From assembly GCA_002798175.1 (NCBI GenBank), contig NWQL01000002.1, positions 554,754-618,753 of the forward strand: a DNA stretch of 64,000 nucleotides, given 5' to 3'. Shown one piece after another: positions 24,774 through 42,314 of the stretch (its first letter is position 1; each line of letters starts with the position of its first letter). The position numbers and the translations under genes are program-made. The notes beneath the pieces were generated by a model. That model saw only the letters and a list, made by a program, of their open reading frames with translations, made no database searches and was not told the DNA's origin. Source of the DNA: Lysobacteraceae bacterium NML91-0213 (GTDB lineage Bacteria; Pseudomonadota; Gammaproteobacteria; Xanthomonadales; Xanthomonadaceae).

Positions 24774-26900
24774 TTACCAGATCCGCACGCGGTCTTCCGG
24801 TGCGATGTAGAGCGGGTCGTTCTCGGTCACGTTGAACGCCTCGTACCACGCATCGATGTTGCGCAGCGGGGCGAAGGCGCGGATGTGGCCCGGCGAATGC
24901 GTGCCATTGACCAGCTGCTGGCGCAGCGCATCGTCGCGCCACAGCGTGCGCCACACCTGCGCCCAGCCCATGAACAGGCGCTGCTCACCGGTGAAGCCGT
25001 CGATCACCGGCGCCGGCTTGCCGTCGAGCGAGCGGCGGTAGGCCTCCAGCGCGATGGTCAGGCCACCGAGGTCGCCGATGTTCTCGCCCATCGCCACGCG
25101 GCCGTTGATGTGCATGCCCGGCAGCTGCGGGAACTCGTAGGCCTCGTACTGCGCACCGAGCTTGGCCGCCTGCGCCTCGAACTTGGCCGCGTCCTCGGCC
25201 GTCCACCAGTCACGCAGCAGGCCGGCGCCGTCGGACTTGCGGCCCTGGTCGTCGAAGCCATGGATGATCTCGTGGCCGATCACGCCGCCGATGGCGCCGT
25301 AGTTGACCGCCGGATCGGCGTCCGGATCGAAGAACGGCGGCTGCAGGATCGCCGCCGGGAACACGATCTCGTTCTTGACCGAGTTGTAGTAGGCGTTGAC
25401 GGTCTGCGGGGTCATGCCCCACTCGGTCTTGTCCACCGGCTTGCCGATGCGGTCCTTGCGGTAATCCCACTCGAACGCCATCGCGCGCTCGGCGTTGCCG
25501 AACACGTCGCCGTTGGCCAGCTGCAGGCCGCTGTAGTCACGCCACTCGTCCGGATGGCCGATCTTGAGGCCGAAGCCTTCGAGCTTGGCGCGGGCCTCGG
25601 CCTTGGTCGCCGGGCTCATCCAGTCCAGCTGGTCAAGCCGCGCGCCCATCGCCACCTTCACGTTGGCGACCAACTCGTCCATCTTCGCCTTCGCATCCGG
25701 CGGGAAGTACAGCTTCACGTAGTCCTCGCCGATCGCCTCGCCCATTGCCGACGAGGTGTGGGCCACCGCGCGCTTCCAGCGTGCGCGCTGCTCGGGCTGG
25801 CCGGACAGGAACTTCGAGCGGAACTCGAAATGCGCGTCGGCGAAGTCACTCGACAGCAGCGGCGCGGCATTGTCGGTGGTGTGGAAGGCCTGCCAGGCCT
25901 TGAGGGTATCGAGGTCGGCATCGGCGAAGATCTTCGCGATCTTCGGGAACGCGGTGTCCTGGCGGATCACGCCGGCGTCGGCGTAGTCCACCCCGGCGGC
26001 GGCGAGGTAGGTCTGCCACGGGAAGCCCGGAGCGACGGTGTCGAGCTCGGCGAACTTCACCGGGTTGTAGGTCTTGTCGCGGTCGCGGCTTTCGGCGCGG
26101 GTCCAGTGCGCCTCGGCGATCGCGGTCTCCAGCGCCATGATCTTCTGCGCGTTGCCCTGCGGGTCGTCCCAGCCGGCAAGCTGCAGCAGCTCGGCGATGT
26201 AGGCCACGTAGCGCTCGCGCTGCGGGGCGAACTTCTCGTCGAGATACATCTGGCGGTCACCCAGGCCCAGGCCGGACTGGCTCAGGTACAGGGTGTAGAC
26301 GTCGGGGTTGCGCTGGTCGTCGCCGACGTAATGGCCGAAGAAGCTGCCGCCGAAGGTCGCGTTGCGCTCGCCCATCAGGCGCGCCATGCCGTCCTTGCCG
26401 TCGACGGCGCGGATCGCCTCGAGCTTCGGCTGCAGCGGCTGCGCGCCCAGCGCCTCCACCGCCGCCTCGTCCATGAAGCCCTGGTACAGCGCTGCAAGCT
26501 TGGCGGCGTTGCCGGTGCCGGCGGGATCGCCGAGCTGGTAGCCCTCGAGCATGCGATGCACGCGTGCTTCAGAGAGGTCGCGCAGGATCAGGAACGAGCC
26601 GTACATCGACTGGTCGGCCGGGATCTCGGTGTTCTCGGCCCAGCTGCCGCTGACGTAGGCGAAGAAGTCCTCGCCCGGCTTCACGTCGGTGTTCATGCCG
26701 GCGGTATCGATGCCCCAGCTGCCGAAGCGGCGCGCCTCGATCACTCCCGCGTTGCCGCCCTGCCCTTCGGGCGCGGCCTGGAACAGCGACACCACGTCGC
26801 AGGACGCATCGATGCAGGCGTGGTTGTCATGGGCGACGGCCAGCGGTGCGGCACCGGCGAGCGCCAGCGCGGTGGCAAGGGACAGCAGGGACTTCTTCAT
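24774..26900 (-). CDS. M13 family metallopeptidase (neprilysin/PepO-like), secreted
   Basis: Secreted zinc endopeptidase of 708 aa with signal peptide [19 protein letters not shown] ending in AVA. The zinc site is HEIIH at residues 543-547, and the third ligand Glu is in GENIGDLGG about 60 residues later. NAYYNSVKNEIVFPAAIL is the substrate-binding N-A-Y/F-Y region of M13. The C-terminal W matches the family. The mature N-terminus has two extra Cys (HACIDASCDV), which may form a disulphide. GGAG lies six bases before the ATG. Confidence 0.93.
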   Translation of the reverse strand: MKKSLLSLATALALAGAAPLAVAHDNHACIDASCDVVSLFQAAPEGQGGNAGVIEARRFGSWGIDTAGMNTDVKPGEDFFAYVSGSWAENTEIPADQSMYGSFLILRDLSEARVHRMLEGYQLGDPAGTGNAAKLAALYQGFMDEAAVEALGAQPLQPKLEAIRAVDGKDGMARLMGERNATFGGSFFGHYVGDDQRNPDVYTLYLSQSGLGLGDRQMYLDEKFAPQRERYVAYIAELLQLAGWDDPQGNAQKIMALETAIAEAHWTRAESRDRDKTYNPVKFAELDTVAPGFPWQTYLAAAGVDYADAGVIRQDTAFPKIAKIFADADLDTLKAWQAFHTTDNAAPLLSSDFADAHFEFRSKFLSGQPEQRARWKRAVAHTSSAMGEAIGEDYVKLYFPPDAKAKMDELVANVKVAMGARLDQLDWMSPATKAEARAKLEGFGLKIGHPDEWRDYSGLQLANGDVFGNAERAMAFEWDYRKDRIGKPVDKTEWGMTPQTVNAYYNSVKNEIVFPAAILQPPFFDPDADPAVNYGAIGGVIGHEIIHGFDDQGRKSDGAGLLRDWWTAEDAAKFEAQAAKLGAQYEAYEFPQLPGMHINGRVAMGENIGDLGGLTIALEAYRRSLDGKPAPVIDGFTGEQRLFMGWAQVWRTLWRDDALRQQLVNGTHSPGHIRAFAPLRNIDAWYEAFNVTENDPLYIAPEDRVRIW

Positions 26901-27103
26901 CGGGTTCTCCGGTCGTGGAAGCGGGGCGCGCGGATTGCCCCAGCCGCCCAGAGTACCCGCAGCCCGTGGGCAAGCCCTAGGCCAAAAGTCCCGGTCGCCC
27001 CGCCGGCGGCCGGTAGGGCCGTGCCCGACCCGCCGCCAACACCATCGAGGCCGTCCCCCGTCGCCCGTACGCCGCAACGCGCGCCGGTGCCAACCTCTTC
27101 CGG

Positions 27104-27127
27104 TTCCGCGGCCTATTCCGCGGCCTA
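27104..27127. repeat. Tandem 12-bp duplication at a stop codon
   Basis: TTCCGCGGCCTA occurs at 27104-27115 and again at 27116-27127. The second copy contains the stop codon of the GGDEF gene (CTA, read TAG on the minus strand). It is probably a simple slippage duplication. Confidence 0.6.
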
Positions 27128-29017
27128 TACCGGCTGGACGCGTCGCTCGCGCAGGTCGACCGCAGCGTCGGGGGTGCCGGGGCGCGGCATCAGCGCGCGC
27201 ACGTTGTCCTCGTCGAACACCGCAACCCGTGCCCGGCCGGCGCGCTTGGCGGCGTACATCGCACGGTCGGCATGCGACATCAACCGGGTCAGGTCGTAGC
27301 CCGACAGCGTGGTGTCGGTGATGCCGAAGCTGGCGGCAATGCTCAGGTCGTAACCGCGCTGGCGGGTGTCGACTGCGGCCAGTTGCGCCAGGGCATCCTC
27401 GGCCACCCGCCGCCCGGTCGCGGCATCGCAACCGGGCAGCAGCATGGCGAACTCCTCGCCGCCCAGGCGCCCGATGCAATCGCCCGGTCCGCACAACTCC
27501 GCGCAGGCCTTCGCGACCTGTTGCAGCACCCAGTCGCCGGCCTCGTGGCCGAAGCGGTCGTTGACCTGCTTGAAGTGGTCGAGGTCGAAGGTCAGCAGCG
27601 CGACCACCCGGTGGTCCTGCCTGCACGTCGCAAGCAAGCGGCCCGCCTTCTCGCTGAAGTGGTGGCGATTGCTGACACCGGTCAACGCATCGAGCTCGGC
27701 CAGCCGTCGCAGGCGCATCTGCAGGCGCTTGGTCGTGAAGGCCCAGTACGCGGTGGTGGCGAGCAGGAATGCCAGCAGGCCGGCAACCACCAGCCACAAC
27801 CGGGCCCGCTGTTTCGTACTGTTCTGGTCCAGTTCCAGCAGCGCGTTCTTCTGGTTGAGCAGTTCGATCTGCTGCGCCTGCTGCTGCGACTGGTGGCGCA
27901 CGATCTGGTACGCCATCTCGCGCGACTTCACGTCGTTGAGGTGCCGTCGCTCCGCATCCACGAACGCCTTGTAGGCCTCGAGCGTGGCCGCGGCGTCGCC
28001 ACGCCCGCCCGCGATGCGGTAGAGCGTGCCGTACGCGGAGACCAGTGGCTCGGCGTTGCCGATCCCGCGCGTGCGTTCCACCGCCACCAGGGCGTGGGTC
28101 TCCGCCTTCTCGCTGGCGCCCTCGCGCAGGCGATACTCCGCCAGCAACGCGTGGTAGACACCCTGCAACAGCGGGTAACGGATGTTCTCGACCGTGGAAA
28201 GATAGCCTTCCAGCAATCGGATCGCATGGTCGACGCGATCGCTCGCCGCCAGCCATCGGGCCAGATGGGCACGCGCGAAGGCCGCGAACACGCGCTCGTT
28301 GATCGAGTCGCAGTGGGCGATGTTTGCACGCAGGCGGGCCTCGTCGACGTCCTGCTCCATTCCCAGCGCGGATTCGGCGACGAGGTTCTCCGCCGCGCAG
28401 GCGTTGCGCGGCTGCGGCCGTGAATCGATCACCGCCTGCGCCAGCTGTTGACCGAGCCGGTACTCACCGACCTGGTTGTAGACCACGCCGGCGTTGAGCA
28501 TGCCGCGATGCCGGGTCTCCAGGTCGCCGATATGGTCGCGCAGCGGGAGCACGTCCTCGAGGATGCGCAACGAGTCCTCGAAGCGGCGGTTGGCGGCATG
28601 GATGTTCGACAGCAGCCCGCCTGTCTCGAAGCGGATATCCACGTCGCGGCTTTCGGCCAGCACGTCCTCCAGGAGCGTCACCGCCGGCGTGGACTCACCG
28701 AGCAGCGCATGGCGATACGCGCGCAGGATCTGCAACCGCTGGCGCTGTTGCGGGGTGGCATCGTGCGCGCGCGCATCCAGCTCGGAGAGCAGCTGCTGGA
28801 AACGCGCCACGTCCGAGGTCTTGACGCTGCCGGCTTCGACCAGCAGCGCCTCGACCGCGTCGTCGCCGGCAGCGGCCGCACCCGCGGCCACCGCCACCAT
28901 CGGCATCGCAAGCAGCATGCACAGTGCGGGCAGCATGCGCCCGCGCGTGGACCCGCTACTCCGGAGCACGGTCCTCGCGTTCGGCGGGGTCGCGCTTGCC
29001 GTCGTCATGTCCTTCAT
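27125..29017 (-). CDS. Periplasmic TPR sensor-diguanylate cyclase (GGDEF)
   Basis: About 630 aa. A signal/anchor helix (MLPALCMLLAMPMVAVAAG) is followed by about 350 residues of TPR-like helices outside the membrane, a transmembrane helix at about 405-427, and a cytosolic GGDEF domain with intact GGEEF at 519-523 and DLDHFKQVND, so it should make cyclic-di-GMP. The RxxD inhibitory site upstream of GGEEF is missing (GPGD). The start at 29017 (RBS GAGGAG) overlaps the upstream 80-residue gene by 62 bases; ATG 28936, just after that gene's stop, is an alternative. It is last in the minus-strand run with the borosin-type methyltransferase. Confidence 0.85.
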   Translation of the reverse strand: MKDMTTASATPPNARTVLRSSGSTRGRMLPALCMLLAMPMVAVAAGAAAAGDDAVEALLVEAGSVKTSDVARFQQLLSELDARAHDATPQQRQRLQILRAYRHALLGESTPAVTLLEDVLAESRDVDIRFETGGLLSNIHAANRRFEDSLRILEDVLPLRDHIGDLETRHRGMLNAGVVYNQVGEYRLGQQLAQAVIDSRPQPRNACAAENLVAESALGMEQDVDEARLRANIAHCDSINERVFAAFARAHLARWLAASDRVDHAIRLLEGYLSTVENIRYPLLQGVYHALLAEYRLREGASEKAETHALVAVERTRGIGNAEPLVSAYGTLYRIAGGRGDAAATLEAYKAFVDAERRHLNDVKSREMAYQIVRHQSQQQAQQIELLNQKNALLELDQNSTKQRARLWLVVAGLLAFLLATTAYWAFTTKRLQMRLRRLAELDALTGVSNRHHFSEKAGRLLATCRQDHRVVALLTFDLDHFKQVNDRFGHEAGDWVLQQVAKACAELCGPGDCIGRLGGEEFAMLLPGCDAATGRRVAEDALAQLAAVDTRQRGYDLSIAASFGITDTTLSGYDLTRLMSHADRAMYAAKRAGRARVAVFDEDNVRALMPRPGTPDAAVDLRERRVQPV

Positions 29018-29198
29018 CGGTCCGCTCCTCGGGAAACTCCGTTTCGCCCTCATCCGGCGCGATGATCATGCACATCAGCGCTCCGTGCCGCGCGCGCTCG
29101 TTGCGGACCGACGCGACCAGCGCCGCCATCCCGTCGACCACGCTGCCTTGCGGCGACTGCCCCAGCATCTCCAGCCTGCCCAGCTCCTCGTCAAACAT
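28956..29198 (-). CDS. 80-aa protein of unknown function, candidate borosin precursor peptide
   Basis: Reads from ATG 29198 with GGGGAAGG 4-11 bases upstream. About 84% of its third positions are G or C, like its neighbours, so it is probably a real gene. Residues 1-38 are predicted helical (MFDEELGRLEMLGQSPQG...). Residues 39-47, GALMCMIIA, are the only hydrophobic stretch. Residues 48-80 are strongly acidic and charged (PDEGETEFPEERTDEGHDD...). It lies 72 bases after the borosin-type methyltransferase on the same strand. That layout, leader then short beta-prone core, fits a split borosin precursor, but I see no recognisable borosin-binding domain. It could also be an unrelated small acidic protein. 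Confidence 0.6.
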   Translation of the reverse strand: MFDEELGRLEMLGQSPQGSVVDGMAALVASVRNERARHGALMCMIIAPDEGETEFPEERTDEGHDDGKRDPAEREDRAPE

Positions 29199-29270: not shown

Positions 29271-30122
29271 TCAGGCCGGCACGGCCGCGTGCTCCGTACC
29301 TGCACCCCGACTTCCGGCAAACGCACGCTGCACCGTCGACCGGCCGCACTGGCGCAGCCTCCCGATCATCGACTCGTCGCGCACCATCGGTCGCGCCGGC
29401 GGGATGACCAGCGTCGACTGCATCGACGGATCGGCCTCCACCAGCGCGTCCAGCGCCAGGCGGACCACCTGTGGCTGGTCGACCGGCAGCGTCGCCGCTT
29501 CGTAGAGGATGACCTCATGGTCCGGTGGATAGCCGTCGCCCAGGAGCTTCTCCACCAGCAGCGCGCGTTCCATTGCGCCGGTGCTGCGGAGGCTGACACC
29601 GAGGTCGCCGACCACGCCGATCTGCCATAGCACCAGATACGCGCTGGGATCGATGCGCCGCACATAGGCGAGGTACTGGCTGGCCTCCAGGTGCAGGCAG
29701 CCGGACTGGCCCGGGTCGATGCCGAGATCGGCATAGAGGCAGTCCTCGGCCGAGACCGCAGGCTCCATCCATGCCTCGAAGCCCTCCGACCGGGCCTGTG
29801 CGACGGCGCGGTGCGGCACGCTGGCGAAGACGCCGGGATGGCCATAGAACGCACCGCAGACACGGGCCCCGCGTCGCACCTCGGCCATCATCATCGCCAC
29901 CATGTCGCGATAGGCCGCGTGTCGCGAACGCCCCTCGCCATAGCAGGGCTGCAGGCTGCGCACGTCGGCGTGCATGCGCTGCACCCAGCGTTCGACCACG
30001 GGATCCGCGGCGGCGACGAACACCACGTCCGCGGTGGTGATCTCGCCACGGGCACGCGGTGCCAGATGCGCTCCCAGCATCATTCCCAGCCCCACACAGG
30101 AAAGCCGCCCCCGACCGCCCAT
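29271..30122 (-). CDS. Borosin-type peptide backbone alpha-N-methyltransferase (tetrapyrrole-methylase fold)
   Basis: SAM-dependent methylase of 283 aa. Residues Tyr61, Arg67, Tyr71 and Tyr93 have the same spacing (6, 4, 22) as the catalytic Tyr66, Arg72, Tyr76 and Tyr98 of the fungal omphalotin methyltransferase OphMA. The blocks YGEGRSRHAAYRDM, FYGHPGVFASVPHRAV, SAEDCLYADLGIDP and YLVLWQIGVVGDLG are those of the OphMA/SonM family, not of cobalamin or siroheme methylases. It ends soon after the SAM domain and has no fused precursor, so it is of the split type (as SonM). GTG 30140 is an alternative start. It sits between a GNAT gene and the 80-aa gene. Confidence 0.85.
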   Translation of the reverse strand: MGGRGRLSCVGLGMMLGAHLAPRARGEITTADVVFVAAADPVVERWVQRMHADVRSLQPCYGEGRSRHAAYRDMVAMMMAEVRRGARVCGAFYGHPGVFASVPHRAVAQARSEGFEAWMEPAVSAEDCLYADLGIDPGQSGCLHLEASQYLAYVRRIDPSAYLVLWQIGVVGDLGVSLRSTGAMERALLVEKLLGDGYPPDHEVILYEAATLPVDQPQVVRLALDALVEADPSMQSTLVIPPARPMVRDESMIGRLRQCGRSTVQRAFAGSRGAGTEHAAVPA

Positions 30123-30148
30123 CCCCGTGTCCCCCGACACTTGCGAAC

Positions 30149-30168: not shown

Positions 30169-30711
30169 TCAGCGCGCGACAGCACTCCGGCGGGGCGCTG
30201 CGTCGGCCCGGCTCCGCCAGCGGACATAGCCGCCCTGCCCGGCGCGTGGAATGAAGCCGAGGCGCAACATCAGCCGCCGGACCGGCAGGTTGTCCGGCCG
30301 GTGGCGGGCCACCAGCCCGCCGCCTGCGGCGTGGACGTGTTCCAGCAGGGCCGCGACCACTTCCGTGGCGTATCCGCACTGCGAGCGTCGCGGGTGGAAC
30401 ATCAGCCCGAGCTCCCCGTATGACGGCTCCGCGGTCGGGGCAACCGTCATCAGGCCGATGCGCGCTCCCGATTCCGGCATCTGCAGCATCCAGGCATGCA
30501 TCGTCGGGGGGATGCGCTGTGCCGCGCGCAGCAGGCGGCGCGCGATGTCCGTGGCGTCGCCCGCGGACACATCGCCGACGTGGCGCATCACCGCCGGATC
30601 GGCATGCAACGCGGCGATGAAGTCCAGGTCATCCACGCACAGTGGTCGCACCGCCACGCGCCGGGTCTGGTAGCCCGATGGCCACGGCACGGTCGGCGCC
30701 GCGGCGCTCAC
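30169..30711 (-). CDS. GNAT family N-acetyltransferase
   Basis: 180 aa, RimJ/RimL-like acetyl-CoA-dependent transferase. It starts with the typical YQTRRVAVRPLCVDDLDFIAALHADP. The acetyl-CoA loop region is YGELGLMFHPRRSQCGYATEVVAALLEH (the usual Q/R-x-x-G-x-G/A is read as R-S-Q-C-G-Y-A). It then has RPDNLPVRRLMLRLGF, characteristic of RimJ-type enzymes. The GTG start overlaps the M20 gene stop by four bases (GTGA), so the two are coupled. The substrate is unknown; being next to the peptide methyltransferase gene makes an N-terminal or amine acetylation of the same product possible. Confidence 0.85.
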   Translation of the reverse strand: MSAAAPTVPWPSGYQTRRVAVRPLCVDDLDFIAALHADPAVMRHVGDVSAGDATDIARRLLRAAQRIPPTMHAWMLQMPESGARIGLMTVAPTAEPSYGELGLMFHPRRSQCGYATEVVAALLEHVHAAGGGLVARHRPDNLPVRRLMLRLGFIPRAGQGGYVRWRSRADAAPRRSAVAR

Positions 30712-32276
30712 GGAGCCGGCGCGTCCGCGAATGCGTGCAGCAGGTCGACATAGGACTTCTCGATGTCGGCAAGGCCGGCGGCGCGCACGCCGGCGGCCGG
30801 ATGGAGCAGCATGTATTCGTCGGGTGCATGCGCGCCGGAGCCATGCCCCAGCCCGCCGAACACGAACGGCAGCCCGAGCGTGCGGGTGAACTGGTAGAAC
30901 GGCGCGCTCCCCGCCAGCCACGGCGACACCCGGGGCGTGGCGCCGTACTTGTTGAAGACGCCGATCGCGGCCTGCACCAGCGGCGTGTCCACGCCGGTGG
31001 CGGCGGCCGGGTAGCCGGCCAGCGGCCGCAGCACGATGTCGCCGAAGCCTGCGGCGTCCAGATGCGAGCGGATCATCCGGTAGGCGTGTTCGGGCTCCAG
31101 TCCGGGCGGCAGCCGCGAATCCAGCTTGGCGGTGGCCACGTGCGGCAGCACGGTCTTGACCCCTTCGCCGGAATAACCGCTCCAGATGCCGTTGAGATTG
31201 AGGGTGGGATCGTAGAGGTTGCGCACTATGGCGTCGCGCCCGGTCACGCCATCGATCCAGCGCGCGACCCCGTACAGCCGCTGCTGGGCCGCGTCGTCGG
31301 CATCCGCGGCCAGCGTGTTGACCAGCCGCTGCTCGTCCGGCGTCGGCCCGCGCACCCCGTCGTAATAGCCCTCGATCGCGATGGTGTTGCCGTCGGGTGT
31401 GGTCAGCGAAGCGATCGCCTGCACCAGACGCAGCGCCGGTGAGTCCACCAGCGACTTCAGCGAACCGTGGACCTCCGAACGCACCGGGCCGCCATGTTCA
31501 CCCCCGCGTGCCTCGAGCTCGAAATACACCAGGCCCTTGACGCCGAGGTTGAGCGCGACGCTGCCGTCGGCGGCCTGGATGTTCATCGGGAAGAACGCAC
31601 CATCGGCGTTGCGCAGCCGGTCCTTCCATGGCTCCAGCACGGCGCCGAAGTTCGGCGAGCCGAGTTCCTCCTCGCCTTCGGCGACGATGTACAGGTTCAC
31701 CGGCAGCGTGCCGTGGGTCCTGAGCATCGCGTCCACCGCATTGAGAAACGCGCGTTGCGGCCCCTTCTGGTTGGTGGCGCCGCGTGCCATCAGCACGGTG
31801 CCGAGCTCGTGCTCGACCAGTTCGCCGGCAAACGGATCCGGGATGCGCCAGTTGGGCTCCACCGGCTGCACGTCGTACATCATGTAGACCACCAGCGTGC
31901 GTGGCGCGCCGGCGTCGTAATACGCGAGCACGCCCGGGTGTCCCGGCGTGGGCACCTGTTCGACCTCGTGGAAGCCGATCGTACGCAGGTCGTCGGCCAG
32001 CAGCCGCGCCATCGCATCGACGCCATCGTCGAGCGCACTGATCGAGCGTTGACGCACCCAGCGCTGGAGGTGGGCGATGTGGTCGTCGAGGTCGGCATCG
32101 ATGCGCGCGTACACCTCGTCGTGCCGACGCGCATAGGCCGGTACCGCGGAGGCATCGAAGACCGCGTCGGTGGAAAACGGCCATTGCGGCCGCGGCGATG
32201 CCTGTGCGGGTGCCCATGCCAGGCCGGCGATCGCCAGCAGGAAACCCACGCTCCAACCGGATCGCGATAAGCGCAT
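30708..32276 (-). CDS. M20-like metallohydrolase, exported, with altered metal ligands
   Basis: 522 aa with a signal peptide (residues 1-26). The M20/M25/M40 fold is clear from YDVQPVEPNW, EGEEELGSPNF (200-210) and GHGSGAHAPDEYM near the C-terminus. Two classical di-zinc ligands are changed: the G-H-x-D-V motif reads MMYDV (Met133 in place of His), and the bridging Asp of R-G-x-x-D is Asn169 (ARGATNQKG). The subgroup sharing these changes may bind metal differently or be inactive. The start at 32276 follows GGGGAGG. It is coupled to the GNAT gene downstream. Confidence 0.85.
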   Translation of the reverse strand: MRLSRSGWSVGFLLAIAGLAWAPAQASPRPQWPFSTDAVFDASAVPAYARRHDEVYARIDADLDDHIAHLQRWVRQRSISALDDGVDAMARLLADDLRTIGFHEVEQVPTPGHPGVLAYYDAGAPRTLVVYMMYDVQPVEPNWRIPDPFAGELVEHELGTVLMARGATNQKGPQRAFLNAVDAMLRTHGTLPVNLYIVAEGEEELGSPNFGAVLEPWKDRLRNADGAFFPMNIQAADGSVALNLGVKGLVYFELEARGGEHGGPVRSEVHGSLKSLVDSPALRLVQAIASLTTPDGNTIAIEGYYDGVRGPTPDEQRLVNTLAADADDAAQQRLYGVARWIDGVTGRDAIVRNLYDPTLNLNGIWSGYSGEGVKTVLPHVATAKLDSRLPPGLEPEHAYRMIRSHLDAAGFGDIVLRPLAGYPAAATGVDTPLVQAAIGVFNKYGATPRVSPWLAGSAPFYQFTRTLGLPFVFGGLGHGSGAHAPDEYMLLHPAAGVRAAGLADIEKSYVDLLHAFADAPAP

Positions 32277-32345
32277 CCGCCACCTCCCCGAGCCACGATC
32301 GGCCGATCTTAGCCTGCACTCGCGGGGCACGGCCTGCCCGCGCGG

Positions 32346-41003: not shown

Positions 41004-42314
41004 ATGCACGTCCTTCCACTGCGTTCGCCGTCGGCAGCGCTGCCGCAACGCATCCTGCTGGTGGAAAACTCGCGCAGCTACACGCGGATGGTCGCCGAAG
41101 CCATCGAACAGAAGCTCGAGCTGCCGGTCACCGTGGCCGCCTCGCTCGCCGAGGCCCGCGATGCACTGCGCGCGCACGACGACTGGTTCCTGGCGCTGAC
41201 CGGCCTGGTGCTCGCCGACGGCAACCGCGACGCGGTGGTGGACTTCTTCCTGGACCGCGGGCTGCCGACCGTGGTCGTGAGTGGTGTCTACGACGAGGAC
41301 CTGCGCCGCCGCGTGCTGCGCCGGCAGATCATCGACTTCGTGCTCAAGAACGCGCCGGGCAGCCTCGACTACCTGCTGTGGCTGGTGCAGCGGCTCGATC
41401 GCAACCGCCGGGTGTCGGCACTGGTGGTGGACGATTCCGCGGCGGCGCGCGGCTATGCGGCCGCATTGCTCGAGCTGTACGGCTACACCGTGGTGCAGGC
41501 CGCCGACGGCGATGCCGCGCTCGCCGCGCTGGAGGCGGACTCGACGATCCGGCTTGCGGTGGTCGACCAGGAGATGCCGGGCATGCAGGGCATCGAGCTG
41601 GCGCGGCGCATGCGCAGCGTGCGCACCCGCGACCGGCTGGCGGTGATCGGCGTCTCCGGCACCGAGGATCCGGGGCTGGTCGCACTGTTCCTGAAGAACG
41701 GGGCCAATGATTTCCTGCGCAAGCCGTTCTCGCGCGAGGAGTTCTTCTGCCGGGTGTCGCAGAACATCGACCAGCTGGAGCTGATCGGCAGCCTGCAGGA
41801 CCTCGCGACCCGCGACTTCCTGACCGGCCTGGCCAATCGCCGCCACTTCCTCGAGCAGAGCGAGGCCGCGCTGGCGCGGCTGCAGGCCGCGCATCGCAGC
41901 GCAACCGTGGCGATGCTCGACATCGACCACTTCAAGCACATCAACGACACCTGGGGGCACGAGGCCGGTGACCAGGCGCTGCGCGCCATTGCGGCCGCGT
42001 TGGCGGGACACGCGCGGCCGCAGGATCTGGTCGCCCGCTTCGGCGGCGAGGAATTCTGCATGCTGGTTCCGGACCTGCCGGAGGATGGCGCCGGCGCCTA
42101 CTTCGAGGCGCTGCGCCAGCGTATCGCCGCGCTGAGGATCCCGGCAGGCGCCGATGAATTGCGGGTCACGGTCAGTATCGGCATGGCAACGGTGTCTTCC
42201 GACGCCACCCTGAGCGGGTTGCTGGCCGAAGCGGACCGCTGCCTCTACCTCGCCAAGGCCGCAGGCCGCGACCGGGTCCAGCCGGGCTGGGCGCCGGTCG
42301 CGGCCACGGCCTGA
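41004..42314 (+). CDS. Two-REC diguanylate cyclase response regulator
   Basis: 436 aa: REC1 (about 15-130), REC2 (about 140-265) and GGDEF (about 275-430). REC1 lacks a phosphorylatable Asp (ALTGLVL at the expected place) and is probably a structural or sensing domain. REC2 has LVVDDS and Asp188 in VVDQEMPGMQG, with Lys in FLRKPFS. The GGDEF domain has GGEEF (347-351) and an intact inhibitory I-site RPQD (338-341), so it should make cyclic-di-GMP under product control. No histidine kinase is adjacent. Confidence 0.9.
   Translation: MHVLPLRSPSAALPQRILLVENSRSYTRMVAEAIEQKLELPVTVAASLAEARDALRAHDDWFLALTGLVLADGNRDAVVDFFLDRGLPTVVVSGVYDEDLRRRVLRRQIIDFVLKNAPGSLDYLLWLVQRLDRNRRVSALVVDDSAAARGYAAALLELYGYTVVQAADGDAALAALEADSTIRLAVVDQEMPGMQGIELARRMRSVRTRDRLAVIGVSGTEDPGLVALFLKNGANDFLRKPFSREEFFCRVSQNIDQLELIGSLQDLATRDFLTGLANRRHFLEQSEAALARLQAAHRSATVAMLDIDHFKHINDTWGHEAGDQALRAIAAALAGHARPQDLVARFGGEEFCMLVPDLPEDGAGAYFEALRQRIAALRIPAGADELRVTVSIGMATVSSDATLSGLLAEADRCLYLAKAAGRDRVQPGWAPVAATA

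Follow-up and report, generated by a model that had tools for sequence, protein, structure and literature searches.

The window analyzed in the present study (the whole stretch of 64,000 nucleotides from Lysobacteraceae bacterium NML91-0213) encodes a split-type borosin α-N-methyltransferase close to a TPR-transmembrane-GGDEF diguanylate cyclase, and this pairing recurs in related genomes. Four genes lie on the minus strand in the order GNAT acetyltransferase, methyltransferase, 80-aa candidate precursor peptide, and cyclase. An earlier note on this DNA described the methyltransferase; the other three genes are neighbors beyond what it covered. The enzyme family, gene order, its conservation, the fusion of both activities in a related clade, and an intact GGDEF motif were observed directly. 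We consider it probable that the SonM-like enzyme methylates the downstream precursor and that both form a unit with the cyclase; in the mechanism we prefer, the methylated core would be exported and sensed and would set c-di-GMP.

The methyltransferase ORF (29271..30122, minus strand, 283 aa) is real and lies where the earlier note had placed it, with an ATG at 30122 and a stop at 29271. An in-frame GTG at 30140 is an alternative start, giving 289 aa; in L076, the nearest relative, the ORF begins at the position corresponding to the window ATG (query residue 7). SonM was the best PDB match by phmmer (E 3.3e-59), followed by dbOphMA (5.4e-45), OphMA (4.1e-42), and MroMA (6.2e-41). At E≤1, 25 distinct PDB sequences matched, all of which were borosin backbone N-methyltransferases, and none came from any non-borosin family, including tetrapyrrole, diphthamide, and RsmI-type enzymes. 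The Pfam assignment was PF00590 TP_methylase (E 4.2e-19). The matches to SonM and PF00590 are far above chance.

The catalytic residues of OphMA are Tyr66, Arg72, Tyr76, and Tyr98, with a spacing of 6/4/22. The earlier note had located all four at Tyr61, Arg67, Tyr71, and Tyr93 of the window enzyme (Tyr67, Arg73, Tyr77, and Tyr99 in the 289-aa numbering); they are present there with a spacing of 6/4/22, which we take to be that of OphMA. In the phmmer alignment, they correspond to Tyr58, Arg67, Tyr71, and Tyr93 of SonM, named as catalytic in the accessible text of PMC8429565, and SonM has 3 extra residues before the catalytic Arg. The blocks YGHPGVF, SAEDCLYADLGIDP, and LVLWQIGVVG, previously likened to the OphMA/SonM family, were also found in the ORF. 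The protein terminates 27 residues past its SonM-aligned part; no precursor is fused to it, as judged from the ORF end against this alignment and as the earlier note had claimed.

In the tree, one branch (SH-aLRT 99) split 61 borosin-like rows from 14 TP-type rows; this tree was made by a quick method that raised a warning of long-branch attraction, and the 14 rows were picked among 42 candidate ORFs, some of them shadow ORFs, with their tetrapyrrole/RsmI labels assigned from their position in the PF00590 search. The window enzyme and L076 were sisters (support 100). Rows in which a TPR-GGDEF gene lies downstream formed one group of 31 (support 93), the GGDEF-fused rows formed one group of 15 (support 100), and the joint group of 47 split and fused rows, L014 included, had weaker support (86). 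Three borosin-like enzymes of 450–513 aa with a long C-terminal extension (L073:4926-6278, L074:5472-7013, and L075:5290-6642) formed a separate clade; they come from a genus with genomes of ~5 Mb.

The earlier note had named placement with tetrapyrrole methylases as the outcome that would speak against a borosin identity. Pfam does place the window enzyme in the TP_methylase superfamily, and the NCBIfam models for YabN (1.4e-7) and a precorrin-3B methylase (0.0017) matched it weakly, both far under the cut-offs. However, the PDB matches at E≤1 include no tetrapyrrole, diphthamide, or RsmI-type methylase, the TP-type ORFs scored at most 28.6 bits in their best domain with the borosin-like profile, and the tree puts the window enzyme apart from the TP-type rows. 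On these three grounds, we rejected such an identity, which we regard as extremely improbable. One further TP_methylase match only was found in the same genome, at C1:55430, which is presumably RsmI-like. Since the sequence matches, catalytic residues, and tree agree, the assignment of the window enzyme as a split-type (SonM-like) borosin α-N-methyltransferase is supported.

The start of the cyclase gene (27125..29017, minus strand) was put at the ATG at 29017 because GAGGAG precedes it; the longest ORF runs from 29053. The 642-aa ORF has hydrophobic segments at residues 43–61 and 421–439, between which lies a TPR-like sensor region (27794..28870, minus strand). Pfam TPR matches to this protein were weak and under the cut-off (0.011 and 0.064). 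Because the two hydrophobic segments surround it in the hydropathy topology, the sensor region is predicted to be periplasmic. A hydropathy cut placed a first segment near the start in 24/33 split-type cyclases and a second segment before the GGDEF domain in 31/33. Two Cys residues of the sensor region (C206 and C235 in the first row of the alignment) were invariant in 13/13 aligned proteins. The TPR part had no second match in its own genome at E≤10.

The GGDEF domain (27230..27697, minus strand; PF00990, E 8e-40) retains an intact RLGGEEF signature, and the motif RxGG[DE]EF was found in 33/33 split-type and 15/15 fused proteins. The RxxD I-site is missing from the window cyclase and L076, with GPGD in its place; motifs being read by eye, the I-site was present in 27/33 split-type proteins listed and 0/15 fused proteins. 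The genome contains 26 GGDEF domains in 3.24 Mb, including a second one in the window, in a gene at 41004-42314 on the plus strand (G000:C8:596558-597028), ~12 kb from the cassette.

The enzyme query matched 104 of the 297 genomes sampled from the family. A split-type enzyme, defined as a match at E≤1e-80 with ORF ends inspected in the fetched loci only, was present in 82 genomes, and the TPR part of the window cyclase also matched 82. Eighty genomes had both, G022 and G043 had the enzyme only, and G164 and G193 had the TPR part only. Counting G160 and G020 twice each, there were 84 split-type loci, 80 of which had a TPR-part match ≤3 kb downstream on the same strand. The four exceptions were G228 (match on another contig), G112 (match upstream), G022, and G043. 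Of the 101 TPR matches, 90 had a split-type enzyme within 8 kb, and all 20 fetched loci L076–L095 had a GGDEF domain in the same protein as the TPR match. The Fisher value for the association (1e-67) takes no account of kinship and cannot be read as a fair probability. With 26 GGDEF domains in 3,236,205 bases, the adjacency expected by chance is ~0.01 per locus (26 × 3000 / 2 / 3,236,205).

The pairing extends beyond this sample. Among 25 loci from named records, the enzyme was followed by a TPR + GGDEF protein in 12 (L003–L013 and L022), which include Pseudoxanthomonas, Lysobacterales MAGs, Alteromonas, Marisediminitalea, Aestuariibacter, and Kangiella; in L007, L008, and L011, two GGDEF genes follow one another. 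No TPR match was obtained for the remaining 13 loci, two of which (L014 and L026) carry another GGDEF gene in the stretch. Across the order, the enzyme was found at E≤1e-40 in at least 119/250 genomes and the TPR part at E≤1e-10 in at least 123/250, both counted per genome and not paired locus by locus. In 16 of the 19 loci chosen from other families (L125–L143, with L128 the same place as L005), a TPR + GGDEF gene was adjacent to or fused with the enzyme gene. L143 carries a GGDEF fusion without a TPR match, L134 has an upstream GGDEF gene without a TPR match, and the fetched stretch of L142 showed no GGDEF/TPR gene. In L127, L129, L132, and L133, the cyclase gene comes first and the enzyme gene second.

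A clade of 15 loci (L058–L072) carries the GGDEF domain and methyltransferase in one ORF in 15/15 cases, with the methyltransferase C-terminal, after the GGDEF domain. The window TPR part matched 9/15 of these loci at E≤1e-4, and a Pfam TPR was found in L063, the one fused locus examined in this way. The ORF of L058 has a later start, and some of the N-terminal region is encoded in another frame. A SonA-like small ORF was found just upstream in at least 7/15 loci under a filter of 15% Asp/Glu, by which others may be missed; such an ORF of L058 appeared in flank clustering. An interpretation of the 850-aa relatives as KchMA-like type III fusions with a C-terminal core was wrong; they are TPR/GGDEF proteins with a C-terminal methyltransferase. 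Among 18 genomes of the genus of the window organism, 9 had the split form, 8 had the second form (one with both), and 2 had none.

From gene order, conservation, and fusion, we infer that the split-borosin peptide, enzyme, and TPR-GGDEF cyclase form one functional unit. Two groups of loci count against this: L144 and L145, which have an enzyme and a precursor-like ORF with no cyclase in the fetched stretch, and L015, L016, L018, and L020, which have SonA-like precursors with no cyclase match in the fetched flank.

The candidate precursor gene (28956..29198, minus strand) starts at an ATG at 29198 after a purine-rich stretch, 72 bases after the enzyme gene, and overlaps the cyclase gene by 62 bases. 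It consists of a leader (residues 1–38, 29085..29198), a putative core ALMCMIIAPDEGE (residues 40–52, 29043..29081), and an acidic tail (residues 53–80, 28959..29042), all on the minus strand. The tail corresponds to Asp/Glu-rich tails in relatives, the small-ORF listing behind this comparison being itself filtered by Asp/Glu content. Pfam and NCBIfam searches with the precursor gave no match. A precursor profile found the window precursor as its sole match in the genome, with an E-value that is not independent because the profile contains this sequence. AlphaFold modeled helices at residues 2–13 and 18–37 and coil at low confidence (mean pLDDT 66, pTM 0.24).

A small ORF of like build was found 3' of the enzyme in 19/20 loci L076–L095 and in 12/12 loci L003–L013 and L022. 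In these relatives, an N-terminal leader (approximately MSNVIQFLE.MG, later ALL..D...L..LLGGR) is followed by a hydrophobic core and an acidic tail. Their leaders are mostly ~50–57 residues long; short leaders of 36–39 residues were found in the window, L076, L086, L087, L094, and L095, all of which belong to the same genus. In L077 (G178), the leader and acidic tail of the small ORF 3' of the methyltransferase are in different frames. Two or three precursor genes lie in a row after one methyltransferase in L049/L092 (one locus), L043/L089 (one locus), L056, and L004.

The leader profile of 25 relatives aligned over 54 columns with a SonA-like profile (hhalign probability 94.8, E 5e-8). The latter was made from 6 of the 7 upstream ORFs of fused loci and the precursors of L015, L016, and L020 (without L018), and matched SonA chains in the PDB at E 1.4e-14 to 5.2e-14. 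The split-precursor profile itself matched SonA at E 0.04–0.11 only, below the designed repeat protein 7ue2 (0.002); we judged the 7ue2 match to be spurious because it involves a designed repeat protein and five weak repeats.

The window core is identical in L076. Among 27 cores cut by hand, with L003 and L009 (near-copies), L077 (frames differ), and L007/L008/L011 excluded, Cys was present in 22, Ile, Val, or Leu two places later in 26, and a terminal Asp/Glu in 24. Cores without Cys were found in L007, L008, and L011 and in several loci of other families (e.g., L131, L140, L141, and L150). L144 has four tandem cores (STLSCLVFTPEE, TYFCWVATPEE, TYFCAVNTPEL, and PYFCGVLTPEE); in this locus (L144:3157-7684, G022), a GNAT gene lies before the four-core precursor, a C39-peptidase ABC exporter lies after the methyltransferase, and a cyclase was not found within the stretch.

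Between the window and L076, the dN/dS values were 0.18 (enzyme), 0.13 (cyclase), and 0.38 (precursor), the last value being weakened by the overlap with the cyclase start. Precursor residues 39–67 showed two base differences, a low number to which the overlapping cyclase start and its likely ribosome site contribute. From the leader match to SonA-like precursors and the tandem cores of L144, the 80-aa ORF is the probable substrate of the methyltransferase.

The GNAT gene (30169..30711, minus strand, 180 aa; PF13302, E 3.4e-20) lies directly upstream of the methyltransferase gene, with a GTG chosen as its start. A GNAT match was upstream on the same strand in 19/20 split loci L076–L095 (the exception being L091) and upstream of the enzyme in L003, L004, L005, and L009; none was found in L006–L008 and L010–L012 or in any of the 15 fused loci L058–L072. 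For L013 and L022, the stretch starts within the enzyme and is uninformative on this point. In other families of the order, a GNAT gene is near the enzyme in some loci, sometimes downstream, and absent in others.

In flank clustering, which covered 7 kb on each side of 21 split-type and 15 fused loci, the enzyme, cyclase, and GNAT alone were near-universal; the clusters include many shadow ORFs, and those of 4–10 loci were judged from first residues, so that a partner present in only some loci may have escaped notice. A conserved exporter or protease was rejected, as no such near-universal cluster was present, and Pfam searches identified no exporter or protease within the window cassette. A C39 ABC exporter in the same genome was also rejected; since the C39 search gave only a 261-aa stand-alone match, no dedicated exporter was found. 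Genes identified by Pfam as encoding an M13 peptidase (24774-28256) and an M20 peptidase (30708-32330), both on the minus strand, flank the cassette and have counterparts in 5 and 4 of the 21 loci, respectively.

We propose the following course of events from methylation, at the residues suggested below, through leader removal, export, and sensing to the direction of control. The helical precursor leader would most likely dock on the methyltransferase, in analogy to the docking of the SonA leader on SonM, which the accessible text of PMC8429565 gives as established. Backbone amides would then most likely be methylated in the hydrophobic core ALMCMIIAPDE. The leader would be removed, after which the core may be N-acetylated by the GNAT, and the methylated core would leave the cytoplasm. 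The periplasmic TPR domain would sense the exported core, and the core-bound sensor would set c-di-GMP synthesis by the GGDEF domain. A complete autocrine or quorum-type circuit, in which a periplasmic TPR sensor driving c-di-GMP synthesis would have a backbone-N-methylated ribosomal peptide as its ligand, is advanced here only tentatively.

Co-variation among loci bears on the sensing step. With enzyme distance removed, core distance tracked TPR distance in 27 loci (partial rho 0.33, p 0.001, i.e., 1 of 1000 permutations, uncorrected among 45 distance tests in all), and leader distance tracked the enzyme in the same set (partial rho 0.23, p 0.035). The corresponding values in a family-only set of 21 rows were 0.38 and 0.50. 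When the genus of the window organism was removed (20 loci), core–TPR fell to 0.15 (p 0.11) and leader–enzyme to -0.04, and the leader instead tracked the TPR part (0.43, p 0.001). Cores in these tests were hand-cut; leaders were trimmed automatically, which left at least those of L079 and L006 too short. Because the core–TPR and leader–enzyme correlations fail without this genus, we put forward the sensing of the core by the TPR domain as a hypothesis.

The enzyme and cyclase may be linked by inherited gene order only, with no common function. All rows are related and the loci are not independent, and L144, L145, and L142 have no cyclase in the fetched stretch, all of which suits this explanation. 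However, the link is kept in three arrangements (downstream, upstream, and fused), spans enzyme identities down to ~44% and several families of the order, and is also present in Alteromonas, Marisediminitalea, and Kangiella. We consider inherited order alone to be very unlikely.

If a common function is accepted, control may be reversed: the TPR-GGDEF protein would sense another signal, c-di-GMP or membrane position would switch methylation on, and the methylated peptide would be the output. The C-terminal methyltransferase of the fused clade occupies the place of an output domain, and the cyclase gene comes first in the four loci named above; however, the cyclase follows the enzyme in the window and in 80/84 split-type loci, and the core–TPR correlation hints, not robustly, at contact between the core and TPR domain. 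We regard reversed control as possible, with a modest chance of being correct. Somewhat less likely is that the small peptide remains uncleaved in the cytoplasm and regulates the GGDEF domain or cyclase dimer, with methylation tuning its binding. The enzyme, precursor, and GGDEF domain would then all be cytoplasmic, in keeping with the searches, which found no exporter or protease in the window cassette and no C39 ABC exporter in the genome. However, this explanation leaves the sensor part unaccounted for, and the C39-peptidase ABC exporter after the enzyme suggests export in L144.

We prefer the explanation in which the methylated core is exported and sensed by the cyclase. The recurrent cyclase pairing in three arrangements suggests a direct function, namely, peptide signaling through c-di-GMP. 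If this is true, a borosin pheromone would control the motile-to-sessile switch across the order of Lysobacteraceae/Xanthomonadaceae and in some Alteromonas and Kangiella relatives. The borosin literature searched, in its accessible parts, states no role of a bacterial borosin for its host. Furthermore, dozens of enzymes are paired with precursors whose cores vary (31/32 loci), and these pairs may be useful for making N-methylated peptides.

The earlier note had spoken of an undescribed pathway, which was only partly right because split borosins are a published class and some GGDEF-borosin link is already in print. The accessible legend of Figure 1 in PMC11395268 lists a GGDEF domain among borosin architectures, without type, organism, or function. 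Our literature search, the reach of which did not include the main borosin surveys, found no paper pairing a borosin with c-di-GMP. As far as could be checked, the recurrence of the cassette, the three arrangements in which it occurs, the core unit, and this genus's variant with short leaders are new.

Among known systems, SonM/SonA of Shewanella oneidensis (type IV split borosin, PMC8429565, accessible text) resembles the window in its stand-alone enzyme of similar length with the same catalytic residues and in its separate small precursor with an N-terminal helical leader and a C-terminal core. However, the window enzyme has three residues fewer than SonM between the first Tyr and the Arg, and the window precursor differs from SonA in its shorter leader (38 residues versus a five-helix binding domain), its other core, and its acidic tail. 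The window also has GNAT and TPR-GGDEF partners, whereas SonM/SonA was compared here by enzyme and precursor only. The fungal OphMA/dbOphMA share the enzyme domain (phmmer matches), but have the precursor fused to the enzyme. The architecture in PMC11395268, as given in its legend, is like the window in its GGDEF link, and may represent a fused protein, an adjacent gene, or another arrangement. By description, RcbB of Vibrio vulnificus (PMC12282931) is like the window cyclase in that its GGDEF domain is under the control of a TPR domain and its gene shares an operon with a partner; unlike the window, the accessible text of that paper mentions no borosin enzyme.
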